Assembly (NCBI GenBank): GCA_024278555.1
Contig: JAJRSX010000057.1
Location: forward strand, 1 to 18,460
DNA length: 18,460 nt
Origin: a bacterium
GTDB taxonomy: Bacteria; CG2-30-53-67; CG2-30-70-394
Direction: 5' to 3'
Positions within the stretch are counted from its first letter, which is position 1; every line of letters starts with the position of its first letter. The position numbers and the translations under genes were made by a program. Below are positions 520-18,373 of the stretch, piece after piece. A model generated the notes under the pieces. That model did no database searches, was not told the DNA's origin, and worked only from the letters and a program-made list of their open reading frames with translations.

Positions 520-1674
520 CTATCGCCTTGCCGGCGCCATGCGGAGGGCCATGTTGAGCCGGTAGTCGCCGCGACCGAGGTGCTCCCAGCCGGTGAGGGT
601 GACGCCGGACTCGCCGAGGTGGCCGGGGATATCCTCGGGGGGGTCGTGGGCGGTGTCGTCGTCCGCGTAGTAGACCGCCGCCTTGAGCTTCAGGCGCGGC
701 CCGAGGGTGAGGGTGCCGTGGAGGGCGCCGTAGGTGTCGGCGATGGTGAACCCCTTCAGGGGGCAGCCGCGCAGCACCACCTCGGACGGCTGGGGGCGGC
801 CGTCGATGGCGGTGGTGACGTGGTTCGGGCAGGTGATGGTGCGCGGCTCGCCCGGGGCGAGGTCGATGGTGGAGCGGATCGCCAGGTGGTCGAAGAACCA
901 GCCGATCCGAAAGGGGATGTGGATGCGCATCTCTAAGAGCAGGGTGCGCGGGGTGTGGATCCGGTCGATGGTGGAGCTGGGTGAGCGCAGGCCGAGGGCC
1001 ATGCGCAGGCGGTTCTCGGTGCGTACCACCACCCGCACCGGCCCCTCGATCACTCCGGTCACCCGGCTGTTGAAGTCTTTGCGGGTGCGGAGGAAGCGAA
1101 AGGCGCCCATGAGGCGGCCGGAGGCGCGGAATTTCCCGGTGTCGATCCAGTCGCGCCGGTCGGGGTCGGCGTCCCAGACGAGGCGGTTGAGGACGAAGGG
1201 GCGGTCCGGCTCGAAGCCGACGGTGAAGCCGGGGTGGGCGACCTCCTCCGCCTCGCGGCGGTAGTGGAGCCAGGTGCGGTCGACCCGTGGCGGGTCGTGG
1301 CGGTGGTGGGCGAGGTAGGCGACGGCGCCATCGGGACCGTGGAGCGCCACCACCGCCACCGCGTCCGGCGGCCGCTGGCCCGGCGGTGCGGGGGGGCCGA
1401 GGTCGTCGACCGCTACCACCACCTCGTCGTCAGCGGTGGTGCGTAGCAGCGGTGCGCGATCAAAGTCCCAGTCGCCGGCCGCGTCGCGCGGGTCGACCTG
1501 CATGGGGATCGCCTCCCAGCCGGTGGCGCGCCACGCCCAGGCGCCGATGCGCGCCACCGCCACGCCGACAAAGGGCACCTCCACCGCGACTACATCCGCC
1601 GCCGTGGATGGTGAGGGCGCGGCCGCCGCCGGCACGGCGGCGAGGAGGAGGCCACAGAGGAGCGCGGGCAGCAT
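520..1674 (-). CDS. Secreted protein of unknown function
   Basis: A 384-residue protein starting MLPALLCGLLLAAVPAAAAP, a clear Sec signal peptide with an Ala-rich cleavage region near residue 20, so it is probably periplasmic or outer-membrane associated. The frame stays open a long way upstream, but that part translates through period-9 repeats and a second frame of the transporter gene, so I start at the ATG before the signal peptide. No enzyme motif is visible. Features are a phrase near the N-terminus (IPMQVDPRDAAGDWDFD, then DDEVVVAVDDLG) that I associate with uncharacterised secreted proteins, and two Cys (CPNH, RGCPLKG). It is rich in alternating hydrophobic strands, consistent with a beta-sandwich. 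It is 263 bp downstream of the MMPL transporter in the same direction, so a functional link (periplasmic partner) is possible but inferred. The Shine-Dalgarno is weak (AAGG). Confidence 0.75.
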   Translation of the reverse strand: MLPALLCGLLLAAVPAAAAPSPSTAADVVAVEVPFVGVAVARIGAWAWRATGWEAIPMQVDPRDAAGDWDFDRAPLLRTTADDEVVVAVDDLGPPAPPGQRPPDAVAVVALHGPDGAVAYLAHHRHDPPRVDRTWLHYRREAEEVAHPGFTVGFEPDRPFVLNRLVWDADPDRRDWIDTGKFRASGRLMGAFRFLRTRKDFNSRVTGVIEGPVRVVVRTENRLRMALGLRSPSSTIDRIHTPRTLLLEMRIHIPFRIGWFFDHLAIRSTIDLAPGEPRTITCPNHVTTAIDGRPQPSEVVLRGCPLKGFTIADTYGALHGTLTLGPRLKLKAAVYYADDDTAHDPPEDIPGHLGESGVTLTGWEHLGRGDYRLNMALRMAPARR

Positions 1675-1721
1675 GGTGCCTTGTCCCACAACCCGCCTCA
1701 GGTCGCCAAGGGGCGAAGTTT

Positions 1722-1745: not shown

Positions 1746-1818
1746 TGAGGGTTTTCATTTTCAGGGGTGGCGTTTCTCCACGCCTCGGTCGGGAGATGGT
1801 GGGCTCCCGGAATGGATT

Positions 1819-1926
1819 TTTCACCACAGAGATGGGATGAGGAGGCCGCTCTCCTCGCGAGCCCGAACAGGAGGGAAGCACCTTTCCTCTGCTGTTCTCG
1901 GTGCCCTCTGTGTCTCTGTGGTGAAA
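1819..1926. repeat. 108-bp element with 14-bp perfect inverted ends
   Basis: The left end TTTCACCACAGAGA (1819-1832) is the exact reverse complement of the right end TCTCTGTGGTGAAA (1913-1926). Inward from the right end the 9-bp period continues (minus strand CCACAGAGA, CACAGAGGG, CACCGAGAA). About 80 bp lie between the ends with no ORF of note. The right end stops 11 bp from the stop codon of the transporter gene. It looks like a small non-autonomous, hairpin-capable element; no target-site duplication is obvious. Confidence 0.75.
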
Positions 1927-1937
1927 TCGCCTTTCAG

Positions 1938-4190
1938 TTACCCCCTCCTTCGCTCCAGGGTCAGCAGGAGCGCCGGGAGGAGGAGGAGGTCGCCGAGCAG
2001 GGCGGTGACCACCGTCGCGACCGCCAGGAGGCCGAAATAGAAGGAGGGGACGAAGCGGGAGAAGAGGAGGGTGCCGAAGCCGATGCCGAGGATGAGCGAG
2101 GTGTAGAGCATCGGCCGGGCCACCGCACGCAGGGCGGGGGCGAGCGCCGCGGCCACGGAGTCGGCCGTGCGGCGTTAGTGTTGGAGGTGGTTGAGGAGGT
2201 GGATGGTGTCGTCCACCGCCAGACCGAGGGCGACGCTCGCCACCATGGCGGTGGCGGAGTTCAGGGCGATCCCCGCCGCCCCCATGAGGCCGAAGGTGCA
2301 GGTGAGCGGCACGATGTTCGGGACCATGGAGAGCAGGCCGGTACGCCACGAGCGGAAGAGGAGGATCATCATCGCGGTCACCGACACCAGGGCGATGGCC
2401 AGGGAGCGCACCTGCGAGGTCACGATGAGGTCGCTGATCTGCATGTAGAAGTGGGCGTAGCCGGTGACCTCCAGAGAGAGCTCGGGGAAGTCCCGCGCCA
2501 CCCGGGCGCGGATCTGGTCGATCTGCACCTTCATTGCCGAGGTGCGCGACTCCCCCTCCTGGAGGGCGATGTGGGCGATGGCGCGATCGCCGGAGAGGTA
2601 GCGGGCGAGCTCGTCGCTGCCCTCCTCCGAGAGCTCGAAGAAGAGGTAGCCCTGGGCGATCGCCGGACGGGTGTGGTCGCCGACCGGCCGGCCGTCAAGG
2701 CGGGCGAAGAGGGCGGTGAGGAGGTCGGCGGCGGAGGTGGCGCCGTCGATCCCCTCCACCGTGCGCACCCAGTCGCCGAAGTGCGCCAGGCGGGCGAGAC
2801 GCTCGGGGTCGGTGAAGGCGCCCGGCTCGCCGGTGAGGACGAGGTCGAGGGGGCGGACGCCGCCGAGGTGGTGTTGGAGAAGCACCGTGTCGGTGCGGAT
2901 GGCGCTCCCCTCTTTGAAGTAGGTGAGGTCGTTGGTCTCTACCCGGATCTGCGGGATCAGCACCACCGAGACGATGAAGATGGTCAGGGAGGCGGTGAGG
3001 ATCCAGCGTGGCGCCGCGGCGAGGCGGTGGGCGAGGGTGCGGATCCAGACGTCGCGCTGTACCGCGGTGCGCGGTGCGGCCGGCACCGGTAGGAGGTGGA
3101 GGGCCGCGGGTAGGGCAAAGATGGTGAGGAAGAAGGAGAAGAGGACCCCGAGGGCGGAGAAGCGGCCGAAGTCGTCCAGGGCCGGGATCGGTGAGGCGGT
3201 GAGGGAGGCGAAGCCGGCAGCGGTGGTGAGGGAGGTCATCAGGCAGCCGGGGCCGATACGCCGCACCGTCTCGGTGATCGCCTGCGCCCGCCCGAGGAGG
3301 TGTGCGTGGCTGCGGTAGTGGCTGAAGAGGTGGATGGCGTCACTCGCGGCGATGACCATGATCAGCGGCGGGATCATCGACGAGACGTTGTTCACCGTCC
3401 GCCCGGAGAGGAGGAAGATCGCCAGGGCCCAGGCGGTGGAGGCGACGATCGCGGCCATCGGCAGGAGGACGCCGAGGGGGGTACGGAAGAGCAGCAGCAG
3501 GGTGGCGGCGGTGAGGGTGAGGGTGATCGGGATGAAGGTCTCCAGGTCGCGGCGCATGAAGCGGTTCATCTCGCTCTCGATCACCGGCTCGCCCGAGAGG
3601 TGGGCGCGGTCGCCGAGCGGGGCGAGGACGGCGCGCGCCGCCGCGGTGATCCGGCGGTAGGCCTCGGTCTCCTCCGGCGGTGGGTCGAGGGTGGCGAGGA
3701 GGCCGAGGAGGCGGTGGTCGCGGGAGACGAGGCGGTCGGCGTAGACCGGATCGGCATCGAGGCGGGCAAGCAGCGCCGCTGCCGCGGCGCCGGTGGGGGG
3801 CGGCCCGTCCACCGGCGGCGCCAGGCGCACCGTGTCGCCATTGCCGCGGACCATGGGGGCGCTGACCAGGGAGTAGACCCGCTCGACCCCCTCGATCGCC
3901 TCCAGCCCCGCGACCACCTGCCGCAGCTCCGCCACGGTCGCCGGCGCCAGGGGGTCGTCGCAGTCGATGCCGACCACCAGGACCCGGTCGTTGCCGAAGC
4001 GGTCGGCAAAGTCGTGGTAGGCGGCGAGGTCCGGCGAGTCGGGGATGAGGAAGCGGTCGAAGGAGGAGTCGAAGCGCAGGCGCGGCGCAGTGGTGGCGGC
4101 GGCCAGGGTCAGGAGGACGACCACTACAACGATCGACCGCGGCCGGGCGGCGACGAGGCGGTCGATGAGGGCGAAGGTGCGGTCGAGCAT
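1938..4190 (-). pseudogene. MMPL/RND-family transporter broken by one in-frame TAA
   Basis: Residues 1-671 (4190 to the TAA at 2177-2175) give most of an MMPL-type RND permease. There is an N-terminal TM segment (about residues 19-36), a periplasmic domain, a first TM block with IAASDAIHLFSHYRS and TSLTTAAGFASL, a second TM around residue 400, another periplasmic domain, and the start of the second TM block with GLAVDDTIHLLNHLQH. The TAA falls there. In the same frame the sequence continues RRTADSVAAALAPALRAVAR and then two or more TM segments (TSLILGIGFGTLLFS, LLLLPALLLTLE) to the natural stop at 1938. The two halves of RND permeases are homologous, and the first half shows what should follow, so the 72 codons after the TAA are the missing end. 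A TAC (Tyr) to TAA change explains it. The family exports lipids or hydrophobic compounds; the substrate is unknown. Truncation removes the last helices, so the product is probably non-functional unless the stop is a sequencing error. Confidence 0.85.
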
Positions 4191-4255
4191 GGCGGGCGGC
4201 GGCGCGAGGCGGCCGAGGGTACGGGGCGAAGCAGGCGCGGCGCCAGCGCCCGGCC

Positions 4256-4290
4256 TTCAGCGTTCAGCGTTCAGCTATCAGCTTTCAGCG
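4256..4290 (+). repeat. Heptanucleotide array, 5 units (TTCAGCN)
   Basis: Five 7-bp units: TTCAGCG, TTCAGCG, TTCAGCT, ATCAGCT, TTCAGCG. The same CAGCNNN heptad occurs at 7718-7773 and, inverted, at 7854-7972. A 7-bp period is not compatible with a coding repeat of constant reading frame. Confidence 0.9.
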
Positions 4291-4358
4291 GCGTGGACCG
4301 CGATGACGACGTCGCGTCTATCGTGGGAATGAACGGCGCTACCCGGAAGGTCAAATTG

Positions 4359-4430
4359 GCCACGGAATCCACGGAAGGGCACGGAAGAGTGGGACAGCTC
4401 CCTTCCGTGTCTTTCCGTGGATTCCGTGGC
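4359..4430. repeat. Inverted repeat, 29-bp arms, 14-bp loop (period 9)
   Basis: Left arm 4359-4387 begins GCCACGGAATCCACGGAAG; right arm 4402-4430 is its reverse complement with two mismatches in 29. Each arm is built from 9-bp units (CCACGGAAT, CCACGGAAG, G.CACGGAAG). The loop (4388-4401) can extend the pairing with GGGA/TCCC. Transcribed from either side it would fold into a long hairpin. Confidence 0.9.
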
Positions 4431-4527
4431 TAAAACGCCTTCCAGGCCAGGCCCGTGTGGCCTTCATCTACCGGAGACGCGGAGCCCTCGTTTGTACTGC
4501 GTGGCCGTGTTCGCGGCGGGATATTGG

Positions 4528-7675: not shown

Positions 7676-7706
7676 ATTGTAACCCGGCGGGGTGTCCTCT
7701 CGGCAA
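7676..7706 (-). promoter_or_regulatory. Possible sigma-70 promoter for pntAA
   Basis: On the minus strand TACAAT (7681-7676) matches the -10 consensus at five of six bases, with TTGCCG (7706-7701) 19 bp upstream. The spacing is long and the -35 weak. Transcription would start about 55 nt before the pntAA ATG. A weak call in GC-rich DNA. Confidence 0.25.
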
Positions 7707-7717
7707 GCGGGCGGCGG

Positions 7718-7773
7718 ACAGCGTACAGCTTTCAGCTTTCAGCTCTCAGCTTTCAGCGAACGGCTTTCAGCGG
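7718..7773 (+). repeat. Heptanucleotide array, 8 degenerate units (TCAGCTT)
   Basis: Units in order: ACAGCGT, ACAGCTT, TCAGCTT, TCAGCTC, TCAGCTT, TCAGCGA, ACGGCTT, TCAGCGG. CAGC is the constant core and the other three positions vary. Together with 7854-7972 it forms a head-to-head pair of arrays. Confidence 0.9.
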
Positions 7774-7853
7774 AGGGGCGCCGGGAGGGTGGTGGAGAGG
7801 GGGGGCTTGCGGTTGCACCACGGCCCCCGGTTCGCTGGTTGAAGGAGACGCTG

Positions 7854-7972
7854 TGTCCGCTGTCCGCTGTCCGCTGTCCGCTGTCCGCTGTCCGCTGTCC
7901 GCTGTCCGCTGTCCGCTGTCCGCTGTCCGCTGTCCGCTGTCCGCTGTCCGCTGTCCGCTGATCGCTGATCGC
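7854..7972 (-). repeat. Perfect heptanucleotide minisatellite, 15 + 2 units
   Basis: Fifteen perfect copies of TGTCCGC (7854-7958), followed by two copies of the variant TGATCGC (7959-7972). On the minus strand the unit is CAGCGGA, then CAGCGAT, the same CAGCNNN class as the neighbouring arrays but in opposite orientation. Perfect identity implies recent expansion by slippage. It ends about 30 bp before the start of the next gene, where copy number could alter promoter spacing. Confidence 0.97.
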
Positions 7973-8792: not shown

Positions 8793-8808
8793 GGGCATAG
8801 GGATTGCT
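8793..8808 (+). promoter_or_regulatory. Sigma-54 (-24/-12) promoter for the PEP-CTERM gene
   Basis: GGGCATAGGGATTGCT fits the YTGGCACGNNNNTTGCW consensus. The -24 GG (8794-8795) and -12 GC (8806-8807) are separated by exactly 10 bp, and GGCA and TTGCT match. A purine-rich stretch follows, and transcription would begin near 8819, about 70 nt before the ATG at 8888. PEP-CTERM genes in several proteobacteria are known to depend on RpoN with the PrsK/PrsR two-component system, which makes this site biologically sensible. Confidence 0.65.
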
Positions 8809-8887
8809 TGCAAAAAAAACAAGGGGTGTCTCGGCCGGGGAATACCGTGGCACCCGCCCACACCAAACCTGTCAGGGGGAACTATCC

Positions 8888-9550
8888 ATGCGATTCGGAC
8901 TGCTGGTGGCCGCGCTCGTCCTCTGTGTACCCAACGCCCACGCCGCCCTGGTGGCGACTGGCTCCGCCGCCTTTGGGGAGCCGAGCGGCGGGGTCTCCTC
9001 GCCGATCTTCGGCGGCACCCTCCACGCCGAGGTCTTTGACGCGGCGGGGGGGACCTTCTCGTACACCGGCGAGGCGGTGGCGGCGACCGGTGGGGACTAC
9101 ACCGTGGCCCTGCAGGTGGTCCTCAACCCCGACGCGGAGGGGGAGCAGGCGTTGATCGACAAGCTGACCCTCTCCGCCTTCATGCTCGGGCCGGGGGATT
9201 TCGGGACTCCCCCCTGGAGCTTCGGCCCTGCGCCCGGTAGTGGCGGTACCCTCGGCGGCGGCGGGGATCCCTCCTTTGCGGTGGGGGGGGGGACGTTGAT
9301 GGACCCGGGGGATGCGATCTACACCTGGGCCACGCCGATGGCCGAGGGAGACACCTCCGTCAGCCTCTACTTTACCTACCCGAACCTTGTCGTTCCCGAC
9401 TCGATGAGCTTCGCCCTGACGACCACTGTGGCCACCTCGGTGAACGGAGTCCTGCCCCTCTTGGCGCCTCCGCCGGTGGTCCCCGAGCCCACCAGCCTCG
9501 CCCTGGTGGCCGGGGCGGCGGGCCTGCTCGCCCTGCGTCGGCGGCGCTAG
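8888..9550 (+). CDS. PEP-CTERM sorting domain protein
   Basis: 220 residues. It has a signal peptide MRFGLLVAALVLCVPNAHA, a Gly/Ser/Thr-rich extracellular body without Cys after the signal, and a classic C-terminal sorting tail: VPEPTSLALV (about residues 198-207), a short hydrophobic helix, then RRRR. Such proteins are cut and released or anchored by an exosortase (EpsH/XrtA), usually linked to exopolysaccharide or floc formation, so the genome should encode an exosortase, not in this window. AGGGGGA (8874-8880) lies 7 nt before the ATG. The body probably forms beta strands; I recognise no domain. The frame is open further upstream but the signal peptide fixes the start. Confidence 0.92.
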   Translation: MRFGLLVAALVLCVPNAHAALVATGSAAFGEPSGGVSSPIFGGTLHAEVFDAAGGTFSYTGEAVAATGGDYTVALQVVLNPDAEGEQALIDKLTLSAFMLGPGDFGTPPWSFGPAPGSGGTLGGGGDPSFAVGGGTLMDPGDAIYTWATPMAEGDTSVSLYFTYPNLVVPDSMSFALTTTVATSVNGVLPLLAPPPVVPEPTSLALVAGAAGLLALRRRR

Positions 9551-12683: not shown

Positions 12684-12714
12684 GCGGCTGCACCCGGCGG
12701 CAGGCAGGGGGGGC

Positions 12715-12888
12715 AAAACCACGAAGGACACGAAGGGGTGGTGGCCATCGTTGTGATGCCAACGGTGAGCACTGTGGCTGCGGCTCCGCGCCTCTGCGCG
12801 AGGCCTGTGTCTCCGCAGTCACCAACCCACCATCGTTGTGGCAAAGGTGGCGCCCAGCGCTCTTCTTCACCTCCGTGAACTTTGTGGT
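12715..12888. repeat. Repeat-filled spacer with period-9 arms
   Basis: The left arm begins CCACGAAGGACACGAAGG (12719-12736). Its first 21 bases (12715-12735) recur exactly, inverted, at 486-506. The right arm TTCACCTCCGTGAACTTTGT (12866-12885) reads in the opposite sense. Between them are GCCTCTGCGCGAGGC and TGTGTCTCCGCAG words of the CGCAGAGAC class, and an 11-bp direct repeat CCATCGTTGTG at 12745-12755 and 12830-12840. It occupies most of the 266 bp between the MBL-fold gene and ispH. Confidence 0.7.
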
Positions 12889-14249: not shown

Positions 14250-16793
14250 TCACACGCCGATGCGCCGGAGGCGCAGGAGGGGGGCTTCGTCCACCTGGGG
14301 CTCGGGGAGGTCGATCTCGGCCTCGACGCACCACATGTTGTCACCCTCGGGGTCGAGCAGGGTCTGGGTGCAGCGCCAGTGGCGCGGGCCGTCCTCCTTG
14401 AGGGTGGTGAGGTGGGGCCGCCGGGCCGCCGGGGTGAAGAGGATCTCGTCGTAGTCGTCGAAGTAGGGGGCAATCGCCTCCTCGATCCGTCGCGCCTCCC
14501 ATGGGTCCGCCTCGTCCGGGCACAGGAGGGTGGCCGCCTCCTCGTAGTCGCGCTCCGCCAGGGCGCCCACCAGGCGGTGGAGCTCGGTGCGCACCCGGGC
14601 GGCGAAGGCGCGCGGGTGGAGGGTGGGGTCGAGGGTTACCTTCGCCTCCGCCGGCGGCGGAGCGCCGCTCTTGAGGAGCCGACCCGGGTGGTGCATCTGC
14701 TCCCACTCCTCCAGGAGAGAGGCGTCGACGGTCTCCAGCAGCGCCCGCAGGTAGGCGACGATCTCGTCCACCGCGTCGCTCTTGTACGGGTCGGGGACGG
14801 TGTGGCGGAGGCAGTTGTAGACCTGGCTCAGGTAGCGCAGGAGGACCCCCTCGGCGCGGGCGATGGCGAGGTGGCGGACGTAGAGGGGGAAGGTGTAGAG
14901 CCCCTCGAACATCTCCCGGGCCACCGTCTTCGGGCGGATATTTTCCCCCGCGACCCACGGGTGGTGGGCGGCGAAGCGGTTGAAGGCGGTGTAGATCGCC
15001 TCCGCGTTCGGCTTCGGGTAGGTGACCTCCTCGAGCCGCTCCATCCGCTCGTCGTACTCCACCCCCTCCGCCTTCAGCCGAGCGATGAGCTCCCCCTTCT
15101 CGCGCCGCACCTGGGCGTAGAGGACCGTGTACGGGTGCTCGAGGATCGACTCCACCAGCGACAGCAGGTCGAGGGCGTAGTCGGGGGCGTCGCGGTCGAG
15201 CTCCGCCAGGGCCTCGACGAGGAAGAGCGACAGGGTGTGGTGGAGGGAGAAGTCCCGCTGCAGGTGGTCGGCGAGCACCAGCTCGCTGCCACCGCCCCCC
15301 GGGCGGCGGATCACCTGGATGAGCTCGGCGTCGCGCAGGGAGCGGAAGAGGGCGGCGGCGCGGCGGCGGTGGTAGACCTTGGCGCCGTCGCCGCCGTGGG
15401 CGTGGCGGATGAGCTCGGTGATGGCGCAGTAGCCGCCGGCCCGCTCACCCCTCTCGATGCCGCGCTGGAGGCACTGCAAGAGCAGGCCGTGGTCGATCTC
15501 GAAGCGGGAGGTGAGGGGCTCGGGCGGCTGGTTGGCGAGGCGCTCGAAGCTCTTCTCGTTCCAGTTCACCAACCCCTTGGGGGCGGCGCGCTTGGCGACC
15601 CGCTTCTTCTTGCCCGCCGCCTGCTTCGCCGCGGCCCGCTTGTTGGCGATGGTGTGCTCCGGCGCCTGGGCCACCACCCAGCCGGCGTCGTCGAACCCCT
15701 TGCGGCCGGCGCGGCCGGCGATCTGCAGGAAGTCGCGCACCGTCAACAGTCCCACCTTCTCGCCGTCGTACTTGGACAGGCGCGAGAAGAGGACGGTGCG
15801 GATCGGGATATTGACCCCGACCCCGAGGGTGTCGGTACCGCAGATCACCTTCAGCAGCCCGTCCTGGGCGAGGCGCTCCACCAGCCGCCGGTAGCGTGGC
15901 AGGAGCCCCGCGTGGTGGACGCCGATGCCGTGGCGCAGGAAGCGTGACAGCTCCTTGCCGTACGGGGTGTCGAGGCGCACGCCGGTGAGGGCTTTGCCGA
16001 TGGCGCGCTTCTGCTCGCGGTTGGTGACCTTCGCGGAGGTGAGCGCCTGCGCCTGTTCGGCGCACTCGCGCTGGGCGAAGTGGACGATGTAGATCGGCGC
16101 CCGGTCGCTGGCCACCAGCGACTCCACCGTCTCGTGGATCGCCGTCTCGCGATACTCGAAGGTGAGCGGCACCGGCCGCTCCACCGCGCCCACCTCGGCC
16201 ACCTCGCGGCCGCTGCGGGCGGTGAGCCGCTCGCGGATCTCCGCGGTGTTGCCGAGGGTGGCGGACATGAGGAGGAAGGTGGTCGCGGGCAGGGTGAGCA
16301 GCGGGATCTGCCACGCCATGCCGCGGTCGCGGTCGCCGTAATAGTGGAACTCATCCATCACCACGTACGGCGCGTCTACCTCTTCCCCGCGGCGCAGGGC
16401 CTGGTTGGCCAGCACCTCGGCGGTGCAGCAGACGATCGGGGCGTCGCCGTTGATCGTCGCATCCCCCGTCTGCATCCCGACCCGCTCCGGGCCGAAGGCT
16501 TCGCACAGGGCGAAGAACTTCTCGTTCACCAGCGCCTTGATCGGCGCGGTGTAGACGGAGCGGCTGTGCTCGGCCATCGCCTTGAAGTGCAGCGCCGTGG
16601 CGACCAGCGACTTGCCCGAGCCGGTAGGGGTGGCGAGGATCAGGTGGCGCCCCCCGAAGAGCTCCAGGATCGCCTCCTCCTGCGCCGGGTAGAGCTCCAG
16701 CCCCAGCTCCGCCACCCAGGAGAGGAAGCGGTCGAGGATCTCATCGGAGGTGATGGGTCCTTCTTGCGGGAGGAGGTCGACGAGGGAGGGCAT
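14250..16793 (-). CDS. Ski2-like DEAD/DEAH-box helicase (DUF3516 type)
   Basis: 847 residues from MPSLVDLLPQEGPITSDEIL. Helicase motifs: Walker A ATPTGSGKS (54-62), Ia TAPIKALVNEKF, Walker B DEFHYYGDRDRG (from 147), III SATLG (177-181) and VI QIAGRAGRKG (357-366). A Lys-rich stretch follows (about 384-406). The long C-terminal half has no catalytic motif and matches my recollection of the DUF3516 region that follows this core, best known from actinobacteria. Probably an ATP-driven RNA helicase. The frame continues to a TTG at 16835, but those 14 codons are only repeat sequence (period-9 unit at 16825-16852), so the ATG at 16793 is preferred, although it lacks a good ribosome site. Convergent with ispH (124-bp gap, no clear terminator). 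Confidence 0.92.
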   Translation of the reverse strand: MPSLVDLLPQEGPITSDEILDRFLSWVAELGLELYPAQEEAILELFGGRHLILATPTGSGKSLVATALHFKAMAEHSRSVYTAPIKALVNEKFFALCEAFGPERVGMQTGDATINGDAPIVCCTAEVLANQALRRGEEVDAPYVVMDEFHYYGDRDRGMAWQIPLLTLPATTFLLMSATLGNTAEIRERLTARSGREVAEVGAVERPVPLTFEYRETAIHETVESLVASDRAPIYIVHFAQRECAEQAQALTSAKVTNREQKRAIGKALTGVRLDTPYGKELSRFLRHGIGVHHAGLLPRYRRLVERLAQDGLLKVICGTDTLGVGVNIPIRTVLFSRLSKYDGEKVGLLTVRDFLQIAGRAGRKGFDDAGWVVAQAPEHTIANKRAAAKQAAGKKKRVAKRAAPKGLVNWNEKSFERLANQPPEPLTSRFEIDHGLLLQCLQRGIERGERAGGYCAITELIRHAHGGDGAKVYHRRRAAALFRSLRDAELIQVIRRPGGGGSELVLADHLQRDFSLHHTLSLFLVEALAELDRDAPDYALDLLSLVESILEHPYTVLYAQVRREKGELIARLKAEGVEYDERMERLEEVTYPKPNAEAIYTAFNRFAAHHPWVAGENIRPKTVAREMFEGLYTFPLYVRHLAIARAEGVLLRYLSQVYNCLRHTVPDPYKSDAVDEIVAYLRALLETVDASLLEEWEQMHHPGRLLKSGAPPPAEAKVTLDPTLHPRAFAARVRTELHRLVGALAERDYEEAATLLCPDEADPWEARRIEEAIAPYFDDYDEILFTPAARRPHLTTLKEDGPRHWRCTQTLLDPEGDNMWCVEAEIDLPEPQVDEAPLLRLRRIGV

Positions 16794-16824
16794 GGACGCA
16801 GTAGACAGGAGATCGAGGGGAGGG

Positions 16825-16852
16825 GAAACCACCAAGGCCGCGAAGGGGCACG
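16825..16852 (+). repeat. Period-9 repeat arm (ACCACCAAG/GCCGCGAAG)
   Basis: 9-bp units ACCACCAAG, GCCGCGAAG, GGGCACGGG. It belongs to the CCACGAAGG class. It fills the junction between the helicase start and the toxin remnant, directly where the toxin coding sequence is cut off. Confidence 0.7.
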
Positions 16853-16966: not shown

Positions 16967-17227
16967 GTGAAGGAGTTTCGTCGTGCACAGAAACGGGTCG
17001 ACGTCTCGGTCGGCGAGTCGGTGAAGATCTTCCGTGAGCTTCAAGAGATGAGCCAGAACGATCTGTCGAAGGCCACGGGGATCGCTCAATCGACGATCTC
17101 GGCGATCGAGAATGGTCGTGTCAAGCTCGGTGTCGAGCGGGCCAAGGTGATCGCCAGGGCCCTCAAGCGCCACCCGGCCGTCCTTGTCTTCCCCGGCTGG
17201 GAGATCCACAAGCAATCCGCTGCGTAA
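16967..17227 (+). CDS. XRE-family HTH protein, HigA-like antitoxin
   Basis: 86 residues from a GTG, with GGAG (16955-16958) 8 nt upstream. The HTH (about residues 17-72) contains LSKATGIAQSTISAIENGRV, a textbook XRE helix-turn-helix, followed by GVERAKVIARALKRHPAVLV. In toxin-first modules the antitoxin binds the toxin and represses the shared promoter. Here the toxin is only a fragment, so this may be an orphan antitoxin kept as a regulator or as an anti-addiction protein against related toxins. It is intact and has normal coding character. The end FPGWEIHKQSAA is typical for these short regulators. Confidence 0.88.
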   Translation: MKEFRRAQKRVDVSVGESVKIFRELQEMSQNDLSKATGIAQSTISAIENGRVKLGVERAKVIARALKRHPAVLVFPGWEIHKQSAA

Positions 17228-17236
17228 ACCGCGGGG

Positions 17237-17266
17237 CTCGCGCAGAGACGCTGAGGCGCAGAGGGG
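17237..17266 (+). repeat. Period-9 repeat (CGCAGAGAC type), copy left of the GGDEF gene
   Basis: CTCGCGCAGAGACGCTGAGG then CGCAGAGGGG: 9-bp units CGCAGAGAC, GCTGAGGCG, CAGAGGGG. It matches 18344-18373 at 27 of 30 bases in the same orientation, so the diguanylate cyclase gene is bracketed by direct copies. Confidence 0.88.
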
Positions 17267-18300: not shown

Positions 18301-18343
18301 GGCGCTACTTTCCCGTGGCCGCCGGCGTCCGTCAAAGGGGGGC

Positions 18344-18373
18344 CTCGCGCGGAGATGCGGAGGCGCAGAGGGG
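18344..18373 (+). repeat. Period-9 repeat (CGCAGAGAC type), copy right of the GGDEF gene
   Basis: CTCGCGCGGAGATGCGGAGG then CGCAGAGGGG: 27 of 30 bases identical to 17237-17266 and in the same orientation. It lies 44 bp upstream of the cyclase start codon, where it may overlap the promoter region. Confidence 0.85.

Follow-up and report, generated by a model that had tools for sequence, protein, structure and literature searches.

The interrupted transporter gene and its surroundings

The window (the whole stretch of 18,460 nucleotides that was analyzed) belongs to the draft genome (MAG) of an uncultured Nitrospirae-type bacterium. Between pntB and a gene for a protein of unknown family it carries a gene that, judged from its sequence, encodes a 750-residue MMPL/RND exporter (HAE3-like) with 12 transmembrane (TM) helices, and that is interrupted by an in-frame TAA. 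The features of this locus are:

1938-4190, minus strand (read from 4190 to 1938): whole frame of the MMPL/RND gene, 750 codons with one internal stop
2178..4190, minus strand: codons 1-671 of the transporter, TM1-TM10 and both periplasmic loops (from PF03176, TIGR00921, the sister orthologue and an AlphaFold2 model)
2175..2177, minus strand: TAA in frame at codon 672, Glu in the sister species (from the sister alignment)
1938..2174, minus strand: tail after the stop, 78 codons and a terminal TAA, with TM11 (679-710) and TM12 (714-748) (from dN/dS against the sister, weak profile matches and the helix limits of the model)
520..1676, minus strand: open reading frame, the downstream gene, which adjoins the transporter gene in the sister as well
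1801..1944, no strand: inverted-repeat element at the 3' end of the transporter gene, arms 1801-1832 and 1913-1944 (from a repeat search)
4333..4456, no strand: inverted-repeat element upstream of the transporter gene, arms 4333-4387 and 4402-4456, also found in part at 114-149

The frame opens with M, reads NHLQH immediately before the stop and RRTADSV immediately after it, and ends in LERRRG at its terminal stop. Translation bore out the preliminary description in that exactly one TAA interrupts the frame (2177-2175), which continues unshifted and open to 1938; 671 codons lie before the stop and 78 after it, the latter having been put at 72. The codon model scored the tail as coding in that frame, and this score, together with the gapless alignment to an open 750-codon orthologue in the sister species, suggests a coding frame far more strongly than chance would allow. 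All start codons after the TAA (GTG, ATG, and CTG) were checked and none is preceded by a Shine-Dalgarno-like motif, as had been remarked for the GTG. It is thus very improbable that a small membrane protein is made from the tail by separate translation, an idea that selection on the tail frame would favor, since a ribosome-binding motif is absent before every one of these codons and the sister and full-length homologues are single open frames. The fold of the RNA 3' of the stop is unremarkable (z -0.45), and a structured read-through element at this place was rejected on that account.

The protein encoded at 520..1676 had no Pfam or NCBIfam match. The spacer 3' of the transporter gene measures ~260 bp here vs. 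~45 bp in the sister, which is consistent with an insertion of inverted-repeat elements in this lineage; these elements lie clear of the stop. Dispersed repeats of the 'CCACGGAA...TTCCGTGG' and 'CACCACAGAGACACAGAG' type occur in many intergenic regions of the window (1801-1944, 4333-4456, 114-149, 486-519, 12702-12735, 17223-17266, and 18330-18373). A near-perfect TGTCCGC tandem array (7-bp unit) spans 7840-7965, upstream of a CDP-alcohol-phosphatidyltransferase-like frame, and related CAGCTTT units lie at 7702-7792 and 4244-4296. Further features of the window are a small exported protein at 8804-9550, with a PEP-CTERM tail just under the Pfam cut-off, and a DEAD/DEAH helicase with a C-terminal DUF3516 domain at 14250-16835 (minus strand).

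Protein family and predicted fold

The part of the transporter before the stop matched PF03176 (MMPL) with 116 bits (cut-off 20.5) and the intact sister protein did so with 112 bits, while their matches to TIGR00921 (HAE3), 194 and 223 bits respectively, both fell under the cut-off of 351.9; the protein is HAE3-like only. The tail alone gave weak matches to TIGR00921 and TIGR00833. Modelled with AlphaFold2, the intact sister protein has the RND fold (mean pLDDT 88.4), with 12 TM helices arranged as two related halves, and its best solved structural matches were MmpL5, MmpL4, and MmpL3, followed by HpnN and NPC1-like proteins (Foldseek against 8zkp_A: E 1.5e-27, TM 0.77). In this model codon 672 belongs to the final turn of TM10 (645-673), at its cytoplasmic end, and TM11 and TM12 lie beyond it, in agreement with the initial view that the stop costs the permease its last TM helices. 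A product ending at codon 672 would have 671 residues and lack 2 of the 12 helices, and would almost certainly be inactive. The MAG encodes at least four other MMPL/RND genes.

Comparison with the sister species and distant homologues

The sole close orthologue was found in Nitrospirae bacterium CG2_30_70_394 (MNYW01000012.1; G001:C17), a congeneric sister species. It is 82% identical over 750 gapless codons, is open throughout and has Glu at the position of the stop, a column that is variable, mostly polar and not Tyr in distant homologues. The change had been ascribed to a Tyr codon (TAC) turned into TAA, and an alignment had been proposed in order to see whether the position is Tyr or His; the Glu of the sister and the absence of a conserved Tyr from the family members aligned speak against that origin. 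The stop is kept in none of the homologues aligned and no complete homologue ends there, so that neither a family of orthologues all ending at NHLQH, which had been named as a possible refutation, nor a programmed read-through by a conserved stop applies to this gene.

Against the sister, dN/dS was 0.284 before the stop and 0.306 after it, and where the two proteins differ the residue of the window is more often the commoner one among distant homologues (10 v 4 after the stop). Because of these results we see no relaxed constraint on the branch of the window, and a search of the gene for signs of a pseudogene (relaxed selection, further lesions, an excess of unusual residues) gave none besides the one lesion. 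A decayed pseudogene is ruled out by these values together with the pooled dN/dS given below, so the stop would seem to be very recent, or not real, or not effective. A search for a second copy of the region in the MAG gave distant paralogues only, and the plasmid records searched held no match.

It is possible, if on the unlikely side, that the stop is a real, very young nonsense allele, by which the transporter would be truncated in the strain as an incipient pseudogene or a segregating polymorphism. This would suit one clean change in a transporter that looks non-essential and has at least four paralogues, and decay would not yet be expected.

In-frame stops elsewhere in the genome

One internal TAG in a response regulator from another part of the MAG prompted a wider scan, in which a six-frame codon model was used to find stops with coding sequence of one and the same frame on either side. 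The MAG sample comprised 1.04 Mb (34% of the MAG, 974 gene ends) and the controls 0.85 Mb from four relatives (654 gene ends; 521 kb from the sister and 329 kb from three other genomes of the class). Boundary hits were removed by eye, and L195:267 and many others were dropped as gene boundaries or wrong-frame hits. In total, 12 mid-gene stops were confirmed by a sister orthologue in the MAG, while the relatives, in which the thresholds were less strict than for most of the MAG sample and of which the sister sample was half the size of that of the MAG, yielded gene boundaries only and no mid-gene stop (Fisher p = 0.002 against all four, 0.02 against the sister alone).

The interrupted genes, most of whose names were read off the sequences and not obtained from family searches, are those for the RND transporter, the response regulator, a MoxR/CbbQ-like ATPase, two multihaem cytochromes, an NtrC-type activator, an AlaC-like aminotransferase, LysS, a DUF3106-like protein, a HAD-type phosphatase, a MotB-like protein, and a DsrE-like protein. 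Besides the transporter, the single in-frame stops in the sampled stretches (11 in all; ten TAG and one TAA, in genes that are otherwise intact) lie at:

L105:2681
L125:2784
L125:12417
L129:4323
L109:5953
L097:2583, minus strand
L126:19009
L106:4303
L194:15058, minus strand
L207:7769
L197:6086, minus strand

An internal TAG in a NadB/FrdA-like flavoprotein (L118:2687) was a further candidate, the thirteenth; it had no close sister orthologue and was therefore not counted.

The sister orthologues are open at all 12 stops and 60-92% identical across the stretch searched, and pooled dN/dS of the 12 genes was 0.249 before the stops and 0.263 after them. The stops are 10 TAG and 2 TAA, with no TGA (p = 0.14 under equal-rate point change), and stand opposite Glu (8), Gln (2), Trp (1), and Asp (1) in the sister; at least ten Glu or Gln among 12 would arise with p = 0.004 under equal-rate point change with the codon usage of this genome. 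The presumed G-to-T class was never present as its complement C-to-A (p = 0.02). A mutator arising from the loss of an HhH-GPD (MutY/Nth-type) glycosylase was rejected, as three members of that family are open in both genomes.

When shared orthologues were compared, 3 stops (transporter, MotB, and LysS) and 1 frameshift were found in 136 genes of the MAG vs. none in 143 sister genes; the whole-gene homology scan was noisy, and most of the stops that it listed lay in wrong frames or 5' flanks and were set aside. The MAG carries a frameshift in an EboB-like gene (L105:17846-19023, minus strand) that is open in the sister (L146), which makes some genuine gene loss plausible and to that extent favors a young allele. 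Against it stand the count of stops (12 in 1.04 Mb, none in the relatives) and the 3:1 ratio of stops to frameshifts in shared orthologues, whereas genuine decay commonly produces indels.

Lysyl-tRNA synthetase and decoding machinery

The lesions fall on genes whatever their importance, and among the genes struck, beside those for the NtrC-type activator and the MotB-like and AlaC-like proteins, is lysS, the sole lysyl-tRNA synthetase gene in the MAG, which has an internal TAG (G000:C56:18175-19635, in L126 and L255). A class I enzyme (LysK) was searched for in the MAG and not found, and other class II matches were weaker and under the LysRS cut-off, so a second enzyme that would make lysS dispensable was rejected. 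True loss cannot account for this stop, which weighs against a young allele in the transporter too. The options first listed for the transporter (young pseudogene, polymorphism, read-through, or assembly error) were well chosen, but they were drawn up for one gene and missed the genome-wide set; with stops across the genome, including the sole lysyl-tRNA synthetase, the weight moves from a young pseudogene towards an error or a base that is not fixed and, with less likelihood, towards read-through.

The release factor 1 (RF1) gene prfA is intact in the MAG, the 48 tRNA genes found are all ordinary with no suppressor anticodon among them, and TAG is the terminal stop of 40.2% of the genes vs. 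38.5% in the sister, with no depletion. Recoding or strong suppression is not supported because of these three results, on which a genome-wide reassignment of UAG or UAA was rejected as well. The cells can hardly read TAG efficiently, as suppression at that level would harm, TAG closing as many genes as it does.

Weak read-through is possible in principle. UAG and UAA may be leaky in this lineage, with near-cognate insertion of Gln- or Glu-like residues giving full-length protein at a reduced level, but we consider this unlikely. In RF1-lacking Escherichia coli, near-cognate decoding suppresses UAG, with Gln and Tyr among the residues put in (PMC6207430). Where bacterial genes are under purifying selection, interruptions by in-frame stops are reported to be frequent but short-lived (Belinky et al. 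2021, PMC7918605); that study proposes stop read-through in bacteria and, in order to exclude artefacts, considered only stops common to two or more species. In the present set all 12 stops are TAR, ten of them replace Glu or Gln, purifying selection persists beyond the stops in the pooled genes, and the essential lysS is included, all of which would fit. Apart from the intact RF1 and ordinary tRNAs, however, the lack of TGA is just mildly unexpected, the Trp and Asp sites misfit a simple Glu/Gln decoding, and at the transporter stop the RNA fold is ordinary and conservation absent; weak read-through of the only lysyl-tRNA synthetase also seems costly in a cell with RF1. Less probable still is a truly ambiguous UAG/UAA in this lineage: the two codons would end about half of the genes and yet be read as Gln or Glu at Glu/Gln-type positions in a dozen genes or more, lysS among them, despite the presence of RF1 and the lack of a dedicated suppressor tRNA.

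Origin of the stop

The transporter gene is undecayed and the MAG has about a dozen equally clean stops per megabase sampled, the one in the sole lysyl-tRNA synthetase gene included; therefore, the TAA is most likely not fixed. On this reading the base-level nonsense change, which strikes a Glu position that is not conserved, would be a wrong base in the MAG consensus or one carried by a minority only. The living population would not have fixed it; it may stem from a low-coverage, damaged-template, or strain-mixture substitution, and most cells would carry an intact transporter. We give an even chance to this reading, which would locate the cause in the consensus sequence rather than in the cells, and a sequence error or non-fixed base is more likely than death of the gene. 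The essential gene struck, the absence of decay and the clean sister speak for it. Against it, a substitution rate of ~5e-4 per base would be needed (our estimate from the nonsense count), which is high for a 100%-complete MAG, the Glu/Gln skew (10/12) fits less well, and the missing C-to-A complement is unlike the strand-symmetric prediction for library damage.

Taken alone, the stop makes an ordinary interrupted transporter gene, and it is the wider pattern that matters. If the stops are errors, a MAG rated as 100% complete and 0.68% contaminated has a base-level fault that is invisible to completeness scores and that would mislead whoever infers pseudogenes or lost genes from it. If they are real, UAR codons within an essential gene are tolerated by a bacterium that has RF1, which would make it a directly testable case of ambiguous termination.

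Comparison with known systems

With the in-frame stops of PMC7918605 the transporter shares a clean, short-lived stop, an intact downstream frame and a dN/dS well under 1, but its stop is known from one MAG and is absent in the sister. Stop-codon reassignment or amber suppression in bacteria would likewise give an excess of in-frame TAG at Glu/Gln positions; here, however, RF1 is present, no suppressor tRNA was found among the tRNA genes and terminal TAG is not depleted. A young bacterial pseudogene with a single nonsense mutation also has one such change and intact relatives, whereas the transporter gene shows no decay and belongs to a group of which one member is an essential single-copy gene. 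From other MMPL/RND exporters (HAE3-like; PF03176, nearest NCBIfam TIGR00921) the protein differs by its score under the TIGR00921 cut-off, its ~15% sequence identity to solved structures and the interruption of the window copy, while it shares with them the two halves of six TM helices with periplasmic loops and an Asp in TM4 (ASDAIH) and TM10 (VDDTIH).
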